Assembly (NCBI GenBank): GCA_950295325.1
Contig: OX485806.1
Span: forward strand, 10,664,001-10,728,000
Origin: Polytrichum commune
Lineage: Eukaryota > Streptophyta > Polytrichopsida > Polytrichales > Polytrichaceae
Direction of reading: 5' to 3'
Length of the DNA: 64,000 bases
Part shown: in pieces, positions 386-59,500 of the stretch
How positions within the stretch are numbered: the stretch's first letter is position 1
How the letters are laid out: each line of letters opens with the position of its first letter
Notes under the pieces: generated by a model
Database searches by the model: none
What the model was told of the DNA's origin: nothing
The model's input: only the letters and a program-made list of their open reading frames with translations
Made by a program: the position numbers and the translations under genes

Positions 386-3300
386 TCAGAAACTCCTTGG
401 GGTTGGGGGCTTGTCTCCTGCCAAGTTAACTCTTAGCTGCCTTCCGTCATAATCCTGTGCAACACACCCAAATATGAGAACAAACCTTGGCATTCCTCCG
501 GTCATAATAAATATCAAACACTCCTAAATAATCATCTTCTAGTGATCTCAGGGCAGCAAGCAACACAAATAAGAAAGTAAGAACACAGGGCACTTACAGC
601 TCCATCAAGCTTTTCAATGGCTTCATTCACTTCTGAGGCTTTCTCGAAGGTTACAAAACCAAATCCTCGTGACCTCCCTGATTCTCTATCGTGCACAACC
701 TTGGCATCCAAAACATTGCCGTAGTCTGAAAACAGTTGCCCAAGGCTTGAATCATCTACACTCCAGGCTAGGTTTCCAACAAATAGTTTGTTAGGGTTGT
801 TGTAGCTGCCACCCCTGCTAGCACCACCGTAGCCTCCCTCAGTCCTGGGAGGTCTTTCACTCCTAAAGTTGTTTGTCCGGGGTTCCCTGTTAGATTGTGG
901 GAAGTTTACCTTCAAAGCCCTTCCTTCCATTTCCTGAAACAATAAATTCCAAATGCTTAAGAAGATAGAAAAACTGCAAATCATTATTCCTTTTGTTTCA
1001 CCACCCTAAATCACTACAAAATATAGTTCCTCACTATTACAAATACTTAGGTGTATTTGAAGCCATTAACATCACACAACCAGAAGTTCTTTAAAGTAAA
1101 AATACAGCGAGCACCTTTACAGGTAGGGACAATTGACTGAGATAAGTGAAAGTAGTGGCCATAACATCTGCATTGGAACTGACATGATGGAAACTGGATA
1201 AAGCTAGAACAGCAACCTTTTACTATCCATCTTTGATATAAGACAGATTTTGCATCAGTATTAACATTCAGATTTTTGAAAGGCCAGGAAACAACTTACA
1301 AATCCGTCCAACTTAGCAATTGCCTCTTGTGCGTCCTTATTGGAGGACATGGTGGCGAAAGCGTATCCCCTACTTCTTCCGGTGTCTCTGTCATAGATAA
1401 CCTGTTGGGTACATGCCACATTGTAACAATTACTTCCCACAACGCACAGAAAAGCACAGATGGGATTACAAGATTTGCAGACATGGGAATAACACGTAAT
1501 TTACTGAAATCGCTCTCAGACACAGAGTGCAACCTATGGCCAGGACTGTAATGGCAATGCCCTCACTTCTCCTAAAATACTAGGGGTTGGACATATTTCC
1601 CACCTAGGGGCAAACCATGTTATAGGTAGAATAATAATAATAGTTCTACCAAGAACGAATGCTGATATCAGCTACGTTGCTAAAGAATAACTTGAGGAAC
1701 ATGTAGGATATCCAAAGCTACGCAAAAACTTGGTCACTCTCCAAAACCAGTGGACCTCAGAAACGGGTCAAAGTATGGATATAGATTTGTTACATTGCCT
1801 CTGCTTGGAAAAGACGGCGCATGTAAGTAGAAAGGAGGTACTTTCAACATCTCCTCTCGTCAGGAAAATTTGTCTTCCATGAGGCAGCACAAAGGACATT
1901 GTCTAGCCTAACAACAAAAATTGGCATGTGACCAGTAGGACTTATACAATCTCGCAAAGAACACATGTCAGTTTAAAACAGCGAGAGAACAAGGTCGGAT
2001 TACGGACGGCACTAGGCACTAGAATTTGGCTACTCAAGTTTCAACATGTCATCTCGCCAGGAGAATTCAACTTCTATAAGGCAGCACAAAGGACATTGTC
2101 TCGCCTACCAATGATTATTGACTTGTGACAGTAGAACGACATCTACTCATGCAGCATGTCGGAGTTAATATCCGCAAGAAACAGAACACCGACATGCGGG
2201 TAGGTCAAAGCCAGCAGCACCTCGACAAGCTCAACCTTGCCAAAGTCTTTGAGGTAGGTAATAGAAATAAGGTACTAGAGCATCGACGTTATTCTCGTCA
2301 GAATGATTTTAACTTCTATGAGATGCACAAAAACATTGTCTCACCTAACACTGAAAATCGATACATAACCGGTAGAAAACATTGAACATAGCAAAAGAAA
2401 AGCACATAAGCCAGAATTGATATCGGCAGAACTATGAAGGCAAGCAGCACCTCGACAAGCTCAATCTCTCCGACGTCTTCAAGATAAGACTAGAAAGGGA
2501 GTACTAGAGCTTCAATTTAACTTCTACAGGGCGACAGTAAGCACATTGTCTCGCCTAGCAATGAAAATTGACATATGACCAACAGAACTTGTCGAATATC
2601 GCTAAGAAGAACACAGATGCCGGACTTAATGTCAGCAAGAAACAAAATAGATACATGCAACTATGAAGGCGGGCAGCACTTCAACAAGCTCGACCTCGCC
2701 GACGTCTTCGAGGGAGGTAATACAAAGGAGGTACTAAAACTTCCACGTGTCATCTTGACAGATGAGTTTAACTTCTATGAGGCGGCACAAACTTAAACAA
2801 TGTCTCGCCTAACCATATGAAACTGACATATGACCATTAGAACTTGTCGAAGTGCACAGATGCCAGAGTAAATACCAGCCAGAAGCACAACAACAACGAG
2901 CAGCACGTCGCCGCCGTCTTCGAGTTAGATACTAGATAGAAAGTACCATTGCTTTGACGTGTCTTCTTGACGGAAAAAATTAACTTCTATGAGGTGGAAC
3001 AGAGGAAACCGCTAACAATCAAAATTGACATATGACACGTAGAAAACATCCAATATCGCAAAGATGAACACAAATGCCAGGCTTCAATAATATCAGGAAA
3101 CAAGAACAAAGGGCAACGCAGCTTGTGAAGCTGTTTCATCAAGTGTGCAATTGTGACAAGACTTGAATAAGAAGCCCCGGCTAACTCCGTACCAGCAGCC
3201 GCGGTAAGACGGGGGCCTAGACATGGCACTTTGAAGGCAAGCAGCACCTTGTCAACCTCGCCGACGCCTTCGAGGTACGCACTAAAGCTTCAATGTATCT

Positions 3301-3887
3301 TCCCGACAGGAAAATTTAACCCCTACAAGGCGGCAGAGAGGACATTGTCTCCCCTAACACCGAAATTTGGCGTCTGACCAGTAGAACTTCTCGAATATCG
3401 CAATAGAAGAGCACATGCAGACACCTGAGTTGATATCAATAAGATATACGACAACGACATGCAACTATAGGAAAGCGAGGGGCGGTACCTCGACAAGCTC
3501 AACCTCGCCGACATCTTGCAGCACTTCCGCGAGGATTTGGCTGTTGCAGCTCCACGGCAAGTTTCCAATGTAAAGCTTGGAGCCTTCCTCAGGAGAAGGG
3601 GAGCGAGGGGCGCTCTCCTCCGCGGGGGCCTCCACGGTCTCCTCAGCCGCGGGTGCCGATTCGTAATCCAAGTCTGCAGCCCTGGCGATGATAGAAGCGT
3701 TCAAATTCAAACCCGACCTCCTGGCGAGAGACAGGCTCAGAAAGCTACAAGACACGGCCGCTGAGGTCACAGAGGGTGCTGCCATGCTCAAATGGGCACC
3801 ATTCTTGGTCGCGTTTGTCTCGGACCGCATTGCTACGGCGGACAACCGCGTGCCGGCCACAGCCATGGTCATCCTTGCGGCCGCCAT
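386..3887 (-). CDS. Chloroplast ribonucleoprotein with two RRM domains (cpRNP, CP29/CP31-like)
   Basis: Exons, complement: 3489-3887, 1300-1401, 598-933, 386-454. All join in phase 0 with GT..AG introns and give 301 aa, the usual cpRNP size. Residues 1-70 are rich in Ala, Ser, Met and Arg with few acids, like a plastid transit peptide. Residues 72-102 form the acidic linker typical of cpRNPs. RRM1 has RNP2 KLYIGNL (104-110) in exon 1 and RNP1 RGYAFATM (144-151) in exon 2. RRM2 lies in exon 3, with RNP2 KLFVGNL (216-222) and RNP1 RGFGFVTF (256-263). The short last exon supplies the final beta strand (GRQLRVNLA) and a TGA stop at 386. Known family members bind plastid mRNAs in the stroma and help their stability, processing and editing. 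Start 3887 is the first ATG of the open frame. Intron 1 (2.1 kb) is filled by tandem repeats. Which cpRNP paralogue this is cannot be told. Confidence 0.93.
1830..3488 (-). repeat. Degenerate ~230 bp tandem repeats in cpRNP intron 1, each with a copy of the exon-1 end and 5' splice site
   Basis: The exon-1 end (plus-strand motif CTCGACAAGCTCAACCTCGC at 3489) recurs in diverged form at about 2221, 2451, 2680, 2907 and 3248. Spacings are 230, 229, 227, 341 and 241 bp. In most copies the base pair next to the motif still reads GT on the coding strand (GTCGAG then GTGCTGC), so each copy is a potential donor site. A second landmark of each unit (AACTTCTATGAGGCGGCACA and the following ACATTGTCTCGCCTA) recurs near 1870, 2070, 2310, 2530, 2775, 2985 and 3330. 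The one long spacing contains the rRNA-like insertion described separately. The repeats are clearly diverged, so the expansion is not very recent. Confidence 0.85.
3155..3217 (+). pseudogene. Small-subunit rRNA fragment (530-loop region), probably mitochondrial
   Basis: The plus strand carries GCCCCGGCTAACTCCGT, then CCAGCAGCCGCGGTAAGAC and a G-run. This is the universally conserved 530-loop segment of bacterial and organellar 16S-type rRNA. The version GGTAAGACGGGGG resembles plant mitochondrial rrn18 more than typical bacterial or plastid copies. It lies in a stretch about 110 bp longer than the neighbouring repeat units (approximately 3118-3232), so it looks inserted into the intron repeat array. 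Only about 60 bp are recognisable, so it is not a functional rRNA gene. Organelle of origin is inferred, not proven. Confidence 0.8.
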
Positions 3888-4260
3888 AGCTCCAGAAAAT
3901 TTGACGAAACCTGCTTGTTACGCCGATTAAGCTTTCGGAGTCTTGCGGCAAAACAAACCCCAAACCCCTTGCACAAAGAGAGGGCCGTAGAGGAAGAGAG
4001 GAGAGAGAGAAGGCCTCTGGTCTAGCGAGGGGATGGTTATCCAGGGGACTCGCGCACTGGGCCGTCCGATCTCCAGATCCGACGGCCGCGATTGCCTCCC
4101 AGTGGCATTCTCAAGGCCAAGGTGTCGAGGTTGTGGATAATCCAGTTAGCACCTGCGCTGCGCCGTCCGATCTCCGAGACTGGGCGGGTGAGATTGGCGC
4201 AATCTCTTAGCGCTTGGGGAGCACCCGGAGGCCCCGGTCCCCTCGTAGGCCTTTTTGCAC
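3888..4260 (-). promoter_or_regulatory. GC-rich promoter region of the cpRNP gene with a CCGTCCGATCT palindrome
   Basis: The DNA just upstream of the cpRNP ATG is much richer in G and C than its surroundings. It contains a near-perfect palindrome at 4060-4087 (arms GGCCGTCCGATCT and AGATCCGACGGCC, 2 nt loop, one mismatch). A second half-site, GCCGTCCGATCTCC, lies at about 4162. Position suggests the promoter, but no TATA box or start site could be assigned. Confidence 0.4.
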
Positions 4261-4789: not shown

Positions 4790-5275
4790 GTATGTGGGTT
4801 TTGTGAGGTCACTCTTCCTAATTAGACACCTTACTTTATGTTGTATACCACAAGGTTGTAGTTTAAGAAATGGACACCCAAAAGACACATGCTACGATGA
4901 GGTTGGACCTTGTGCTCAAAGCATAGACATAACTTTAGGCTCAACGGCTAGAACACAATTTGGAAGGGCCTATGTGATAGCTTAACAAGAAACACATTTT
5001 GCACTACATACTTTTATAACTTTTGCACGCAAAAAACACATGTTATAATGAGATTGGACTTTGTGCTCAAAAATATAGACACCATATTGAGCTTAATAAT
5101 TAAAAGATGGAAGAATCTATGTGATTCTTTAAAGAGAAAAAGAATTTGCACCATGGACTCTTGTAACTTCTAAACCTTTACTTTGATTCTGAAACTTCAA
5201 AATGATAATCTTTGTGACACAAAATTATTAACCAAATGAGATGATTCTTGAGTTGATCCAACTCAGCAACCAACA
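4790..5275 (+). repeat. Dispersed repeat family A, copy 1
   Basis: Shares a recognisable order of motifs with other copies: TTAATTGGGCACC-like start, AAGGCTTGTAGTTTAAG, GAGATTGGACTTGTGCTCAAA, AATTGGAAGGGTCTATGTG, then a tail with CTTTGATTCTGAAACTTCAAA and AATCTTTGTGA. Other copies lie near 5660-5890, 7120-7240, 8390-8560, 15785-16150, 27577-27690 and 60010-60250. No protein is encoded. The class is unknown. Confidence 0.6.
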
Positions 5276-19730: not shown

Positions 19731-24086
<4,356 letters not shown>

Positions 24087-24207
24087 GTCTCTACTACGCT
24101 AACAGATGTGTTCTTCCTCTGCAAAAGTCAATACAAAAACACAGCCTCAGGAACATCAGCAACGTTACGTATGTTATGTCAAGTGTCTTCACACCTCTGC
24201 CACTTGT

Positions 24208-25015
24208 CCCATCACAACAAACCTCACGACTTCCAAGGAGATTGATCATACAACAATTTCTGACAACAGAGGGTTTGTTGACCCCTGTTTCTCCACCTCA
24301 TAGTCTCGGATGCAACAAATAGCCTGTTCGCAATGTTTTACATTCAAATTAAGAGACAATCAAAGTGGCTTCAGCTGAAGAAACATCAAACATTCCGTGC
24401 TTTTTGGCTTGGAGTGCCTCAAAAACATTTGATTAGCTAACAGCTGGAACTCTCTGTGGCGTATCTTCAATCCAGACATGCGAATGAATGGTTTGGCATG
24501 GTAATCTTGTAAGAAGGAAATTATCAATAAAAAGAAATAAAGAGCCATCAACTACAGTAAAGAAATTGCTTCTATAGAACAAATCTAATAAAAAACGGTC
24601 TCAGGAAAAACAAGGGTAGTTGGAATATCAAGTATCTTCAAACCTATACCAAGCGTCTCACAACAAATCTCAAGACCTCCAACGAGAGAGATCATACAAC
24701 AATTTCTGAAAACAGAGGGTTTGTTAACCCCTGTTTCTCCACCTCGTAGTATCGGATGCAACAATCAAATAGCCTGTTCGTAATGTTTTGCGTTAAAATT
24801 AAGAGACAACCAAAGTGCTTCCAGCTGGAGAAACATTAATAATACCGCGCTCCGCGGCTTAGCATGCATCAGAAATTGAATAATTGGTTTTCAGCTGGGA
24901 ACTATCTATAGCATATCTTCAATACGGACACGCGAATGAATGTTGTGGCATGGTACTCTTGTAGCAGGAAATTTCTCCATGAAGGGAAGAAAAGAGGCCT
25001 CAAATACAACGAAGA
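24208..25015. repeat. Diverged tandem duplication upstream of PAT (period about 445 bp)
   Basis: The segment from about 24208 to 24560 is repeated at about 24655-25015. Shared landmarks in order are GATCATACAACAATTTCTGA, ACAGAGGGTTTGTT, CCCCTGTTTCTCCACCTC, TCGGATGCAACAA, AGCCTGTTCG, TTCAATnnnGACA and GCATGGTANTCTTGTA. It lies 120-930 bp upstream of the PAT start codon and so may carry duplicated promoter or 5' UTR sequence. No coding content is apparent. Confidence 0.75.
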
Positions 25016-30170: not shown

Positions 30171-31390
30171 ACGAACTCTGTTCTGTGGTTGCCAAATTTG
30201 GTGGAGTTTGATTGCAATCTCCCTTTCTAAGGGCAATCTCCCTCTCTAAGTTTAAGGTATGCTGGAAGGTGTTTTCTGTACTTTGGAATTTTTTGTTCTT
30301 GGCTTGATCGATCGATTGAAGGAAATTACTCTGTTTCGTGGATGCCGAATTGGTGGAGTTGAGTGATTCTTCCGGAGGTGGCTGGGGAACGATGTTTCTT
30401 AATTTAGTGTGAGGTATCTTAGAAGGTGTGTCTAAACGTAGCAATCTGGTTTTCCTTTATCTTTATCACTTAATGCGTATACTAGTTGGATTGTAATTGG
30501 TTCATACTGTGTTGAGAGTCTTTGAAGTACGGAGGAGCTATTATTGCTTCTGTGAAGATAAGTAAACTGTCGTGTGACATTTTGTCTGTAGTTTGCTACT
30601 CGAGTATAGTGGGAGGTGTTACTGTAGTTTCGCATCTGGTGTTCTGTGCTTCATCATTCGATTCAATGAATGACTCGTGGATGTTGAACTGGTGGAGTTG
30701 AGTGATTCTTTCGGAGCCGACTGTGGAACGATGTTTCTTAATTGAGTGTGAGGTATATTAGGTGTTTCTAAGCGTAGAAATATGGTGTGCCTTCTGAAAT
30801 GCGTATAATAATTGGATTGTAATTGGTTCATACTGTGTTGAGAGCCTTTGAAGTACGGAGGAGCTATCATTGCTTCTGTGAAGATTAGTAAACTGTCATG
30901 TGGCAATTTGTCTTTAATTTGTCACTCGAGGTCGGGATTTCCGAGTGTAGTGGAAGGTGTTGCTATCGTTTGGAATGTCTTGTTCTTTGCTCCGTCGATT
31001 GAATGGAAGAGATTTGTTTTGTGGATGCCGAATTGGGTGGAGTTGAGTGATTCTTCCGAATCCGACTGTGGAACGGTCTTTGTTTAGTGTGAGGTGTTTT
31101 AGGGGGTATTGTAGGGGAGGTTTTTCTATGCGTTGAAATCTGGTGTACCTTCCTTGATGGGATGAAATTAAGAAATCTGTTCCCTGGATACCGAATTGGT
31201 CGACTTGAGGTCAACTGACTGTAGAACGGTGCTTTTAAGGCGTTTCTAGGCTTTGTAATTTGGTGCGCAATTATTTCATTCTTTGTTGAGAGTCTTTGGA
31301 GTACGGAGTAGCAACTAATGCTTTCTGTGAAGGTTAGTTAACTGGTCCTCTGGCATTGTGTCTGTAATTTGTCACTTGAGGTCGGGATTT
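30168..31390 (+). repeat. Tandem repeats in the presumed ACLA leader intron
   Basis: Two landmark blocks recur. TGGATGCCGAATTGGTGGAG with GTTGAGTGATTCTTCCG is near 30332, 30678, 31022 and, decayed, 31180. TTGAGAGTCTTTGAAGTACG with GAGGAGCTATTATTGCTTCT and TGTGAAGATAAGTAAACTG is near 30512, 30838 and 31285. The period is about 330-450 bp. The first block resembles the sequence just after the presumed donor (CTCTGTTCTGTGG, AATTTGGTGGAGTTT at about 30177), so the repeats may derive from the start of the intron. Confidence 0.75.
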
Positions 31391-31683
31391 CCGTGTCCGG
31401 GGTGCTTTTAGTAGTTGGAAATTCTTGTTCCTATAATCGGCAACTTTAGTTTTGCTTTTGTTCGTTCTTGATTTCTGTGTTCGCCAGCTGCTCAACGTTC
31501 GAATCTATGGCCTGATTGTCCATAGAAGAGTTAGTCCGCGTCTACAAAAAGAATAATTCGCATGAGCTTATGTTACCAATCTGCAGTCCTACCTCTGTCG
31601 ACAATCAAATTTTGCCATCATCGTGCCTTCATATAATTTCCTCTTACGGAACTGTTTTTTACAGGATCAAGCTATAGAGAAAG

Positions 31684-37493: not shown

Positions 37494-39430
37494 CAATCTA
37501 ACCTCGTTAGTACGACACTCGTTAAGACGACACCCTCGATATTACGACACATTTTTGCGCGACCAAACTTCTTAGTTCAAAACTCCCTCTTTTAGACGAC
37601 TATGACACTCGATAATATGACACTTAGAGCGTGCATTTTGTCATATTAAAGAGGGAATAAATGCTAAAATTCCTTTCATCCATGATATGTACATCTAGAA
37701 TACATCCATTTTCACTTGGGAACTACTTGAGAACTTCACTTATCATTGGAAACTTAATGATAATTAGGGTTACAAGTGTAGAATGGACGTGGTTTAGGGT
37801 TAGAGGGGCCTCCTCCCTAGTATGTTGCCTCTTGTGCACTCTCTTGGTGCAATCTCCAATCTTTGTGCACTCTCTTGCATTCTTGCAATTTCCAAGTTCT
37901 CATTTTATCTCCGGAAGGCCACACTAAGTATTGATCATGTCTTGATTACATTGTATTGAATTATCCTTACACTATTGTACAGAGTGTATCTACATGGTGA
38001 AAGTGGTGATGCTGATGCTGATGGAGTTGCCCAAGCAATAAGTCAGCTTCCTATTCTTTTGTCAAATTATGAGCCTGAAGATGTTTACAATATGGATGAG
38101 ATTGGACTGTATTTTAGAGCACATCCTAATAAAACCTTAGCACAAGGGAAGGTGAAGGGTCGGAAGTTACAGAAAGAACGTGTAACACTTGCTCTTGCTG
38201 TTAATTCAACTGGAACTGATAAGTTGAAGTTGCTTGTGATTTATAAGTCTAAGCAACCACGATGTTTTGGAAGGTGGTAGCCTCATGAGTATGTTCGGTG
38301 GCAATCAAATAAATCCGCTTGGATGAAGGGGGATATATTTGAAGCTTGGATTTTGCAGCTCAACAATCAATTCAAAGGCCAAAATCAAAAGGTGATTATG
38401 ATTTTGGATAATGCATCTTCACATGTTGTTAGATCTGCCAAAGTTGGTAAGTCTCATGGTTTTTCAACCTTGGAATTGAGCAACATGACTTTGGTATTCC
38501 TCCCCCCCAATGTGACAAGCGTAGTGCAACCTTTGGATCAAGGTATAATAGCATCTTTCAAAATTCAATACAAGAAGAAACTTTTGCAGTGGGTTTTGTC
38601 ACAATATGATGATGCTACATTGAAGGACTTAAGGAAGGTGGTGCCCAATATCAGACAAGCTATCATGTGGAGTTATGAAGTATGGAGTGAGTTGGATGCA
38701 CAAATAGTCAGGAATTGTTGGAGGATGGCGCGTATATTACCTGCAACATGGAATGCCGATTTTGCCTTAGTTGACGAAAGGGAGAAGAATAGAATGCGAG
38801 AAGAATCAGATGAACTTGGTGCTCTGATTTCAAAATTGCGATTGGGTGATGATGAGATGTCTATCGAGACTTATATTCATATGGAAGGGGAAGAGATTAC
38901 TAAGCTAGAATTGACAACTGATGAGTTGGTGGATGCCGCTTTGGGAGTCAATCATGCACAAGGCTTTGATCTTAATGTTGATTTGCATTCAGTAGATGTG
39001 GATGATGTTGCTCCACCTACAGTAAAGCTTAGTGATGCTAAACATCATGCATCATTGTTGTCTAATTTCTTATTAGACAACTCTTTACATTTTGGTGTTA
39101 ATGAAATTATTAGTTTTCAAAAGCTAGTAGGGAATTTAGAGAAGATGACAGTTGCTAACTTAGGTAGGCAACACTAGAGATCTTTGAACTCTTATTTCAA
39201 GAGTTCTTGAGAATTTTTGTATTTGTTTGGAGTTATAAGTTATTATTTCATACACTTCCTAAACCCTAAACTCAATGTATATGGTTTGAATCTCATATTT
39301 CTTATGTTTTTGTATTCCCTCGATAGTACGACAATTTTAGGCCATTTGTCATATTAACGAGAAGACGACACCTCGATAATACGACATTTTTTGCGTTTCC
39401 CAAAGGTGTCATACTAAAGAGGGAGAACAT
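37494..39430 (+). mobile_element. Tigger/pogo-like DNA transposon (Tc1/mariner superfamily)
   Basis: Flanked by TA on both sides (37492-37493, 39431-39432). The ends are inverted and related (CAATCTAACCTCGTTAGTAC on the left, the complement of GTATGACACC-type sequence with CTCTTTAG on the right), and each end carries several subterminal copies of CTCGATA(A/G)TACGACA. The pogo/Tigger class has TA target sites and A-C-C-T-C-G-rich ends of this style. It carries a transposase with DDE_1-type motifs, listed next. The length of 1.94 kb is short for the class because the N-terminal coding part is missing. Confidence 0.85.
37975..39177 (+). pseudogene. Tigger/pogo-like transposase, truncated and with one in-frame stop
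   Basis: One reading frame runs through this range, broken only by TAG at 38278-38280 between ...RCFGRW and PHEYVRW. The DDE_1 catalytic acids are present: Asp in YNMDEIGLYF (38095), Asp in MILDNASSHV (38407) and Asp in VVQPLDQGII (38536). Downstream of the stop, an uninterrupted 284-codon frame starts at the ATG at 38323. The CENP-B-like helix-turn-helix DNA-binding part expected at the N-terminus is not found between 37660 and 37975, so it was lost or replaced. An acceptor-like TTGTACAG at 37981 leaves a spliced upstream exon possible, but none is recognisable. Confidence 0.85.
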
Positions 39431-50215: not shown

Positions 50216-50720
50216 CCCTGATAGAAACTTCTACATTAAGCACCAGGATTGCAGTGCCCTGCATTGTTCTGTACTTCAGAGAAAGCATGTTACATAATTC
50301 ATCAAGAGTCAGACATCAACGAACAAAGACAACAATTGAAGTAGTGACCCTCCTCAGATTGGACAGGACAAAACTGTACATTCATTTCCATCGCCAGCTA
50401 GGCACAGACACTTCACTCGATTCGTTGCTAAAGTGATTCATAAGAAGTATATGAGCAGTGGATGCCTGAGTTTCAAAAATAATGGTAACTTTGCTTAAAT
50501 TACAGAAAGTTTCTCCCACGATAGAAACTTCACTGGATTGGAGCACTAGAATTGTGGTGTCCTGCATTGCTCTGTACTTGTAAGAAACCATGTCACTTAA
50601 ATTCATTGGTGTCAGACACCACCAAACAAAGCACAACAGTTGAAGCAGTAAACCTTCTTCAGATTGGACAGGACGAAATTGTACACTCATTGCTGGCATC
50701 ACCAGCTAAGAAACTGGCAC
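50216..50720. repeat. Diverged tandem duplication (period about 300 bp)
   Basis: 50219-50415 and 50520-50715 share, in order, GATAGAAACTTC, CCTGCATTGNTCTGTACTT, AGAAANCATGTNAC, GTCAGACANCANC, AACAAAG, ACAATTGAAG-type and AGATTGGACAGGACAAAA, then CATC(G/A)CCAGCTA. Identity is roughly three quarters by eye. Confidence 0.75.
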
Positions 50721-56554: not shown

Positions 56555-59500
56555 ATGGTAGCGATGCTAGGAGGAGGGCGAGAAAGCAAGAAACTGACCG
56601 AAACACGGAAACTGGGAAAAGAGCTTCTGGAGTCTCGAGCTCACGTCAACAATGCACCCCTCTTGATCGCCACCCTCGCCTCATCTCTCTCCGTTGATTC
56701 GCATTCTGCCTCCCCTAAGGCCCTCACAGAGGCACTTACCTCATTGGAGGCTTTCTTCATCCCCTTGGTGCAATCGGGTGAATTCACTCCTGCAGCGCAG
56801 AGGAAGGCTGACAAGGAGCTTCAGAACGCAAAGAAAGATGAGGAAAAAACAGAGGAGTCCGAGATGGCCAAGGCCGAAGCCATTTATAAGAAGTGGATTT
56901 GGGACCGGTATCGTGAGTTTGTTAGTACTATGTTGCGCTTTGTTGCTCGACATAGCGCCATACCTACTGTCCAGGTATGCTTTCCCGCTATTGTTGTGGG
57001 TTTAGGTAGATGGGCCTTATTTGGTAACTTTTTGGATTCGCGGGATTGAAATTTCTGTGCGTCCGGAAATGTATCTGAATAAGCCAGGATCAATTCTAGA
57101 ATTTTTTGGAGACAATTTCGAATTGTTATGAATCATCAAAGTCCACATAGGCTCCCCCCCACCCAATTATGTTGACTTTTGATCCTAGTATGTTCAATGA
57201 ATTTTTGACAAATTTTGTTACAACTATGCTGCGCTTTGTTGCTCGGTATAGCGCTGTACCTACATTCCAGGTATTTTTTTCAGCATTTTGTTTTGTATAG
57301 TTTGGCAGTTCCTTGCTAGGCAATTTGTAATGAGCTTAAAACCTTGGCAAGGTTTCTGTTCTGCAATGGTGCAATTGAGGGGCACTTTACACTAGAGCTT
57401 GAAGGGTTTTGATCATTGTAATCAACAATCTCTTATTGGTGGAAAATGGGGAGACCGACCGTCCCACCTCACTTTACACTAGAACTGGAGGGCCTTTGAG
57501 ACCAAGAAAGTTTGAATGGAATGAGCGTTTTGGTTCAGAGTTTGGCGTAAAACCTTAGCAAATTTTGTTTCTGCAATAGTGCAATTTGTGCACCATAATT
57601 TGGTCATTATGCTATACTTACAGTCCAGTCCCTTGTGAGGCAATCTGCAATGAGGTTTTTTGTTCAGAGTTTGGCATAAAACCTTGGCAAATTTTCTGTT
57701 TTGCAATGGTGCAATTAAGCACAATAATGTAGTAATTTTGCCATACCTACAGTCCAGGTATCTTTTTTGAGCATTTTTTCTATTGGGCAGTTCCTTGTGA
57801 GGGAATTTGCAAAGATCTTTATTTATTTATTGTTCAGAGCTTGGGTTAAACCTTGGCAAATCATGTATCTTGCAATGGTGCACTACACTGGAAAGCCTGT
57901 GACCACACAAAGTTCAATCTCAATTTTCCATGGTGTGGCCTTAACAACCATGGTTACGGTCCTTGGCCATAGTGTAAAGTGGGCTTGAGCACCATAATTT
58001 GGTAGTCTTTGTGAATCTGAAACAATTGTTATCTGGCAGACAGCTGCATTGCACACAATAATGGAGCTTGTACGAGCTGAAACAGATGGCGAGTTTAATA
58101 ACCAGCTCTACTTGAGGTTGTGCTTCACAATTGTAAGTATATCCTCCTCATATATTTGGCTGCTTCAGAAGAATCAATGTTTTTAATCAATGCATTTCTC
58201 ACAAAAGTAGTATGGAATTGCATTCTTTCTGTCTCTTGTAATTCTCAAAGTTATGGCTCTGAATGCATCACTTCATTTTATCTGGAATGTTTGAGATCAG
58301 AACTCTTACTTGTTGTATGGGAATAATGTATCCAAAGGAGGGTGGCTTGGAATTCAGGTTCTGAAAGAAGCAGTGATTTTTGCAGGTGTGCTCGAGAGGT
58401 TTAAATACCGATCTCCTTGCTGTTCTTGTGTCAGATTATTTCAAGTACTTAGATGTTTGGTAAGCACCAAACTGCCCGGTACCATCATAAAACAAAATGC
58501 AAGTAATTTGTCCTTCTCAAACTTGTGTCTCTGGATCCTGTAATGGTCTGTGAAACTGTTCAAGGAAACCTGTTTTTTTGCATAGTCGATTAAGAGCACA
58601 GTGAAATAAATTGTCCGAGTTGTGGAAAGTATTGAGGTTCACATATCATGTTTTGCATGGTGTGCAGTGTTTTTTTTTACTTACTGATATGAGCACATCT
58701 ATATTGTTTTTGAGGGAGTGGAAGGCTTGCACATCTAAAAACTTATTCTGAAGACAATCAGCCAAAATTTGTATTAATACTAATCTCAACATGTAATCAC
58801 CTACATATGGATTCCTTCAGAGAGATTAGAGGTGTACAGGAGACTTTACCCGACTTATGAACTCGAGATCAAATAAAATTGTATGAGAGCTGAGATACAT
58901 ATAGAGGATTCTAATGCATATGACAATATATGTATTTCTGATGGATGCAGTTACTACACTTACTCTAACATGGAGAAGATTGCCATCAGACGAGTTGCTA
59001 AAAAATCAACAGGTTCAGTGTTTCTATTTCTACTTTTTATGTCATTTATATTCTAGGGCACAATTAATTTACTGTTAATTAATGTCATTGAGAATTTTAT
59101 CAACTTGTTTCTGGTATGCTGTGCAGGGAATGACCTTATATCTAGTGATGATGAGGATGGAAGTAATATTGGTGTGACCAGGTACTATCCTTTTCATTTC
59201 TGTTTTTAAAGTTCACGTTAATAGTCTTTTACAGCCAATGGTGGAAAGTGAGGCAGAATGTCTGCAATTCTAACCTTGACATGATTAGTTCCTGATGGAT
59301 ACGAACTGTGCCATGCTGGCCTATTTCAATTGAGCTTGAAGTTGGAGTTTTTAGACCAATCATTTTGGTAATTCTGTTTTTTTGGGAGTGCAGTGTACAT
59401 GGCATGGTGCAGAACATTTATGATGTTTTGATGAATCTACCGGCATTTCCTAATGATGGGGATGTAACCAGTGACGAGCTTTGGTGTAACAATTTGAGTA

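Follow-up and report, generated by a model that had tools for sequence, protein, structure and literature searches.

The window analysed here is a 64,000-nucleotide (nt) stretch of the Polytrichum commune genome (assembly GCA_950295325.1, contig OX485806.1, positions 10,664,001 to 10,728,000), and its left end carries a minus-strand gene that encodes a protein with two RRM domains and has a first intron filled with decayed copies of the end of exon 1 and its donor site. The remainder of the gene lies beyond the window edge. Pfam found RRM_1 in two stretches of the protein (E 1e-38), and among PDB chains the best relative to span both RRMs as a single stretch was chloroplast ribosomal protein cS22 (E 1e-28); cpRNP is a fair type name for the gene, with a putative plastid location for its product. 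Exon 1 (3489..3887, coding from the ATG, 60.4% G+C) is followed by intron 1 (1402-3488, 43.6% G+C), exon 2 (1300..1401, acceptor CAACAG/GTTATC, the slash marking the junction) and exon 3 (598..933), all on the minus strand. The presumed real donor GT is at 3487..3488 (GAG/GTACCG), a position common to both paralogues of the gene. The window as a whole has a G+C content of 39.9% and the locus lies on a 59-Mb contig.

Intron 1 carries seven decayed tandem units on one strand, running from 3521 to 1820, as located by a profile search in which the profile was built from the same units. Unit U0 (3275..3521; nhmmer E 6e-61) begins 33 nt within exon 1 and comprises the exon end and the start of the intron. 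It is followed by U1 (2925..3274), U2 (2713..2924), U3 (2484..2712), U4 (2254..2483), U5 (2015..2253) and U6 (1820..2014; nhmmer E 2e-44), and outside these seven the best profile match in the window had an E value of 1.8. Repeats cover 1515 nt of the intron and 60 nt of the exon; the intron is thus filled with local imperfect direct repeats. Self-BLAST of 1201-4000, run on the minus strand, returned 23 matches off the diagonal at E<=1; 3517-3228 matched 2708-2431 at 69.9% identity, spanning the exon-1 end, and 3517-3487 matched 2479-2449 at 90%. The self-alignment thus recovered the repeats claimed in the original prediction, with E values down to 1e-37, and the outcome that would have refuted it, no significant match between the exon-1 end and the listed positions, did not occur. 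Tandem Repeats Finder misses the array and reports a single 15-nt row in 1402-3488.

The spacing of the units is about 230 nt except between 3248 and 2907, and this wide gap is explained by an insertion in unit U1, which is 350 nt long and holds about 100 extra nt. The insertion includes a fragment resembling small-subunit rRNA (3161..3215, plus strand) that is 87% identical to E. coli 16S rRNA across 55 nt, among the matches listed. The fragment surfaced by BLAST only, Rfam having found no family at gathering in the window and none at E<=1 in 1402-3600. Judged by the E. coli match, organelle DNA inserted into the nucleus is probably the likeliest source of this piece. In the multiple alignment the units are mutually 53-75% identical, and the array is therefore old.

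The last 33 nt of exon 1 (3489..3521, minus strand), which belong to the repeat unit as its source copy, were scanned as 3521-3489 without gaps against the whole window on both strands, with 2000 dinucleotide shuffles of the intron for comparison. The source aside, the five copies were the five best ungapped matches in the window: 28/33 at 2483-2451, 27/33 at both 2712-2680 and 2253-2221, 22/33 at 3274-3242 and 21/33 at 2924-2892, with 20/33 for the next match. The shuffles reached a maximum of 22 (0/2000 at 23), so the three best matches exceed chance on their own; the scores of the other two copies, at 3248 and 2907, fall within the shuffle maximum, and these two are supported by the collinear alignment of the units. 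The exon part is kept over all 33 nt in U3 (2680-2712), U4 (2451-2483) and U5 (2221-2253), over 27 nt in U1 (3248-3274, with a 6-nt deletion) and over about 20 nt in U2 (2905-2924), while U6 consists of the intronic part alone, with no recognisable exon copy. Each of the five copy junctions has a GT (3247, 2906, 2679, 2450 and 2220), the U2 case depending on how the deletion is aligned. By self-BLAST, ungapped scan and unit profile, the five copy positions first listed were right; that listing is amended by the seventh unit, which takes the array down to 1820, by the shortened exon copies of U1 and U2 and by the insertion in the 3248-2907 gap. The exon-1 end is taken to be the source of the array junctions and not a copy, because it is coding RRM1 sequence that aligns to RRM relatives.

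An alternative would be that a transposon or satellite inserted into the intron, the resemblance of its units to the exon end being incidental. Such an element would explain the tandem periodic structure, and there are other local arrays in the window, for example at 30257-31396. However, no copy was found elsewhere in the window with the profile, and a DNA search of the 408-Mb genome (64 contigs) with U3-U4 as the query, which skips very common words and scores the best candidates alone, gave five matches, all in cpRNP intron 1. A dispersed element was rejected on this result. Moreover, the first unit starts within a coding exon and the identity is collinear across the junction, and a transposon or satellite origin is extremely unlikely.

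The two paralogues, P1 and P2, have exons 1 that are 69% and 46% identical to that of the cpRNP gene, and both have the exon-1 end and donor position in common with it. In P1 the unit profile matched no more than the exon end plus roughly 27 nt at the start of the intron (E 2e-5), and in P2 the exon end alone (E 0.02). Intron 1 of P1 (1300 nt; loci L008 and L009) contains a different tandem array, starting 63 nt past the donor, in which exon-end copies were not found (173/200 shuffles were as good), and no array was found in intron 1 of P2 (597 nt). In the simplest reading, the array was born in the cpRNP gene after the paralogues split, and the corresponding intron of related genes acquired arrays on two occasions.

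Part of the cpRNP gene also occurs elsewhere. The region 788-1580, which takes in exon 2, intron 2, a portion of exon 3 and the final 179 nt of intron 1, has a second copy at about 5.537 Mb of contig C3 (99.4% identity), and its part 991-1580 is also present at about 14.179 Mb of contig C6 (99.3% identity). The C3 and C6 copies have the end at 1580 in common and differ at the other end. They represent gene fragments copied very recently, possibly with a mobile element as the carrier.

Intron 1 very probably grew by repeated local tandem duplication spanning the exon-1/intron-1 junction, followed by decay, as part of a probable local tendency of the genome, and the copies are likely without function. 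Duplication and decay are seen in the structure of the units, their order, their divergence and the junction GTs. The duplicated segment would comprise 33 nt of exon and about 200 nt of intron. In keeping with the reading frame and with general splicing knowledge, the donor transcribed first would be used and the copies behind it removed as intron; the gene would owe its survival to the upstream junction, which remains linked to the coding exon. In classic splicing work on test genes with tandemly duplicated donor sites, the upstream donor is reported to be used. Those constructs resemble the array in having the exon end and donor in tandem, but they are artificial, whereas the cpRNP array is natural and decayed. 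Each duplication of a donor junction would lengthen the intron at little cost. Duplication of an acceptor junction, by contrast, would place copied intron and exon sequence in front of the genuine acceptor, where it might be included in the mRNA; copies would therefore be expected to build up on the donor side.

The copy donors at 3247, 2450 and 2220 pair with the U1 small nuclear RNA at -5.3 to -5.4 kcal/mol, compared with -5.7 kcal/mol for the real donor, and those at 2679 and 2906 pair poorly (-2.8 and -0.6 kcal/mol). Of 177 GTs in the interval from 3520 to 1402, the real donor ranks 8th, the best being -9.5 kcal/mol at 2344; because seven GTs pair better than the real donor, pairing singles out neither it nor the ladder of copies. 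Reading through from exon 1 towards any of the five copy donors runs into one shared in-frame stop, codon 141, which is eighth after the junction, and the frame is shifted in three of the five cases. Use of a downstream donor would give truncated products because this stop precedes every copy donor. The idea in the original prediction that downstream donors could yield longer or variable RRM1 linkers was therefore rejected, while the tandem-duplication origin it proposed is supported by the unit structure, and the recurring donor-like sites are supported by the three of five whose pairing comes close to that of the real donor.

Alternatively, splicing from exon 1 to the downstream donors might generate a regulatory transcript that is targeted for decay and tunes expression. 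This would be consistent with the stop met by every read-through and with the pairing of three of the five copy donors, which is nearly as good as that of the weak real donor. However, 241 to 1268 nt of intron would have to be retained, the upstream donor is equally strong and is transcribed first, and other GTs in the intron outpair every copy donor. Poison splicing of this kind is improbable.

A longer protein would need a copy to be spliced in as a cassette exon, which three copies permit on paper. A scan for in-frame open stretches behind an AG (lengths 12-199) found them in three of the five copies, at 2680-2733 (54 nt), 2451-2489 (39 nt) and 2221-2274 (54 nt); 15-nt stretches of this kind were also present. 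As optional cassettes of 39 or 54 nt, the copies would repeat ...LEDVGEVELVE ahead of the RRM1 strand and give an RRM1 with a larger loop. The GT kept at all five junctions agrees with such a use, as does the conservation of the exon part, whose columns are the best-conserved 33-column window of the unit in the multiple alignment (80.5% vs. 65.7%), matched by 0/186 windows for U0-U5 and by 2/186 for U3-U5 alone. In a permissive pairwise alignment the exon part was higher in 15 of 15 pairs, with a gap of 4 to 13 points, shuffled units averaging 67%. Furthermore, changes from the consensus at codon position 2 numbered 0/10 in U3-U5 (p 0.017), but 2/14 over all five copies (p 0.11), and a similar exon-end copy in the NOC4-like gene described below is open in frame for 120 nt.

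Several observations speak against cassettes. The pyrimidine fraction ahead of the AG is 0.82 in U4 alone, against 0.41 and 0.47 in the other two and 0.47 at the real acceptor, and the exon copies of U1 and U2 are broken. By our own arithmetic five of five GTs would be kept by chance about 1 time in 10, and the kept GTs were not accepted as a sign of selection. The conservation and codon-position tests were devised after the data had been inspected; together they are a hint and no proof, and the conservation of the exon part was not accepted as proof of coding use because it is alignment-dependent and post hoc. The cassette explanation is quite unlikely, and under duplication and decay the copies most likely have no present function.

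A second case lies in the same window, on the plus strand, in a NOC4-like gene identified by its CBF/Mak21 domain (E 2e-45) and by a PDB chain, Nucleolar complex protein 4 homolog (E 2e-63), and modelled as far as the window end. Its intron 1 (56975-58039) follows exon 1 (56555..56974) and contains a copy of the exon-1 end and donor together with further repeats. The source, 56918..56988 (CCAG/GTATGC), and the copy, 57214..57284 (CCAG/GTATTT), are 82% identical. Two further repeats lie within 57590..57757 and end in ...CCAG/TCCC (57628) and ...CCAG/GTATC (57757); by eye, the last 18 nt before 57628 and 57757 resemble the NOC4 exon end, the repeat at 57628 being without the GT.

The exon edges of both modelled genes of the window, cpRNP and NOC4, were compared with the adjoining introns and with 200 shuffles. 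Among 17 donor edges, only the first of each gene had copies beyond all 200 shuffles (2 of 17), and no acceptor edge did (0 of 16). This count is too small to prove the donor/acceptor asymmetry that the duplication model would predict. A weaker third case was found at L060, a UQ_con gene (C6:12556906-12557187), where an array of units of about 200 nt with decayed donors extends over nearly all of intron 1 and starts 11 nt inside exon 1; in the junction test 0/200 shuffles were as good.

The comparison was extended to a survey of introns from families chosen for convenience, with exon borders outside the window read by eye. Eleven first coding introns were included, those of cpRNP, NOC4, P1, P2, L060 and the Rab/Ras loci L067, L068, L069, L070, L072 and L074; in L069 and L074 the start codon is outside the examined stretch and the position of the intron as first was inferred. 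The 30 other or unclassified introns were NOC4 introns 2-14, cpRNP intron 2 and part of intron 3, L071, L073 and 13 UQ_con introns, which lie between exon hits, include three near-copies and may in some cases be first introns. Local arrays were present in 5 of the 11 first introns (cpRNP, NOC4, P1, L060 and L067), beginning inside the exon in three (cpRNP, NOC4 and L060), and in 0 of the 30 others in the survey. The difference had a Fisher p of 0.0006, or 0.002 without the cpRNP intron, and among introns of at least 480 nt it was 5/10 vs. 0/10 (p 0.03).

The process thus appears to be a tendency local to this plant genome that is stronger near gene starts and extends beyond the cpRNP gene alone. 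Fragile, open chromatin at gene starts or relaxed intron length would be candidate reasons for the preference for first introns. The same distribution might be expected if the array multiplied a transcription-enhancing first-intron sequence and were kept for intron-mediated enhancement. However, the units are strongly decayed, and the unrelated array in the paralogue points to mutational bias and not to a kept sequence, making this very unlikely.

Further local arrays in the window were located at 4875-5169, 24176-25008, 30257-31396 and 50220-50708, of which 24176-25008 alone is tied to a gene. It is a 390-nt tandem duplication (79%) just upstream of the ATG at 24086 (minus strand) and is outside the survey tally; the gene starting there is aspartate-aminotransferase-like, a name taken from a reading of the translation. 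An acceptor-like TTTTGCAG lies between the duplication and the ATG, and the region is possibly an intron in the 5' untranslated region. The arrays at 30257-31396 and 50220-50708 are decayed direct repeats with periods of about 345 and 300. Outside the window, a local array at L018 (893-1436) ends some 60 nt before the start codon of a further RRM gene. The window also contains an open reading frame with a DDE_1 transposase domain (38323-39174, E 2e-19).

The closest known system is on the dot chromosomes of chicken, where introns are reported to show "sequence stuttering", termed "exon stuttering" if the repeat takes in the exon edge (PMC12954441, Genome Biol Evol 2026). Exon stuttering was reported there for 236 introns from 115 genes, the median case having 36 bp of exon, 4 copies and a span of 1,751 bp; within-species intron length variation is among the three main features of stuttering, the majority of cases are recognised by Tandem Repeats Finder, and GC-rich dot-chromosome genes are associated (PMC12954441). 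The cpRNP array is alike in being a local imperfect tandem repeat in an intron that touches the exon border and copies the exon edge and splice site, in lying near the chicken medians (33 nt of exon, 5 copies, about 1.7 kb) and in not being in the paralogues, P1 having an unrelated array and P2 none. It differs in belonging to a land plant and not a bird, in an AT-richer intron (43.6% G+C) outside any GC-rich dot-chromosome gene, and in being missed by Tandem Repeats Finder, unlike most chicken cases. Its units are 53-75% identical, compared with an edit distance below 20% in the chicken case worked through in the paper, and the array therefore looks much older. Additionally, the clear plant cases are first introns with the donor side only, whereas in that account chicken cases involve donor or acceptor and include intron 18 of PHF8. 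From the sequence of a single genome, we read the cpRNP array as a plant variant of exon stuttering, and an old one.

In potato, PMC4974935 describes a tandem duplication across the intron-1/exon-2 boundary that created a new intron. The likeness is a tandem duplication over an exon-intron boundary beside the first intron of a plant gene; in the cpRNP gene, by contrast, many duplications of the donor side did no more than lengthen an old intron. A new spliced intron between copies may exist but is not needed, because the cpRNP copies sit inside one intron whose position is common to both paralogues. The potato case aside, exon-edge arrays in plant introns were not found among the titles and abstract openings listed by a literature search in which subscription papers were mostly outside reach, and the term "exon stuttering" was used by one paper among those matched, as far as their accessible text goes.

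Several points weigh against growth by donor-side duplication as a local tendency near gene starts. The exon part is better conserved than the rest of the unit, which simple neutral decay does not predict, although the margin shrinks in the pairwise alignment. Two acceptor-side tests were borderline (2/200 and 6/200), L071, which is not a first intron, reached 4/200 on the junction test, and the exon-only test of L060 was weak (4/200 shuffles as good). PMC12954441 also describes copied acceptor sites in chicken, against a strict donor-side rule. The survey was small and one of its 11 first introns had been picked for its array; without both window genes the difference was 3/9 vs. 0/15 (p 0.04), and 6 of the 11 first introns are without an array. 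Moreover, local repeats of some kind occur at 12 of 57 loci outside the window, of which three hold the P1 array and several have the repeat at a place without assignment to a gene part, and the window itself has further local arrays. An older array could have decayed beyond recognition in the paralogues, and the order of duplication and the use of donors are both inferred from the sequence of one genome.

In a broader form, gene-start introns would grow by a general donor-side stuttering, and the copies that are open and spliceable would form a reservoir of small in-frame cassettes, such as loop variants of RRM1 or a repeated NOC4 exon-1 end; there is a small chance that this is so. If donor-side duplication is genome-wide, it would provide a concrete mechanism for long first introns, and exon stuttering would extend past birds and a few rodent genes. 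The asymmetry between cheap donor and costly acceptor duplications would be a simple prediction that can be checked in any annotated genome.

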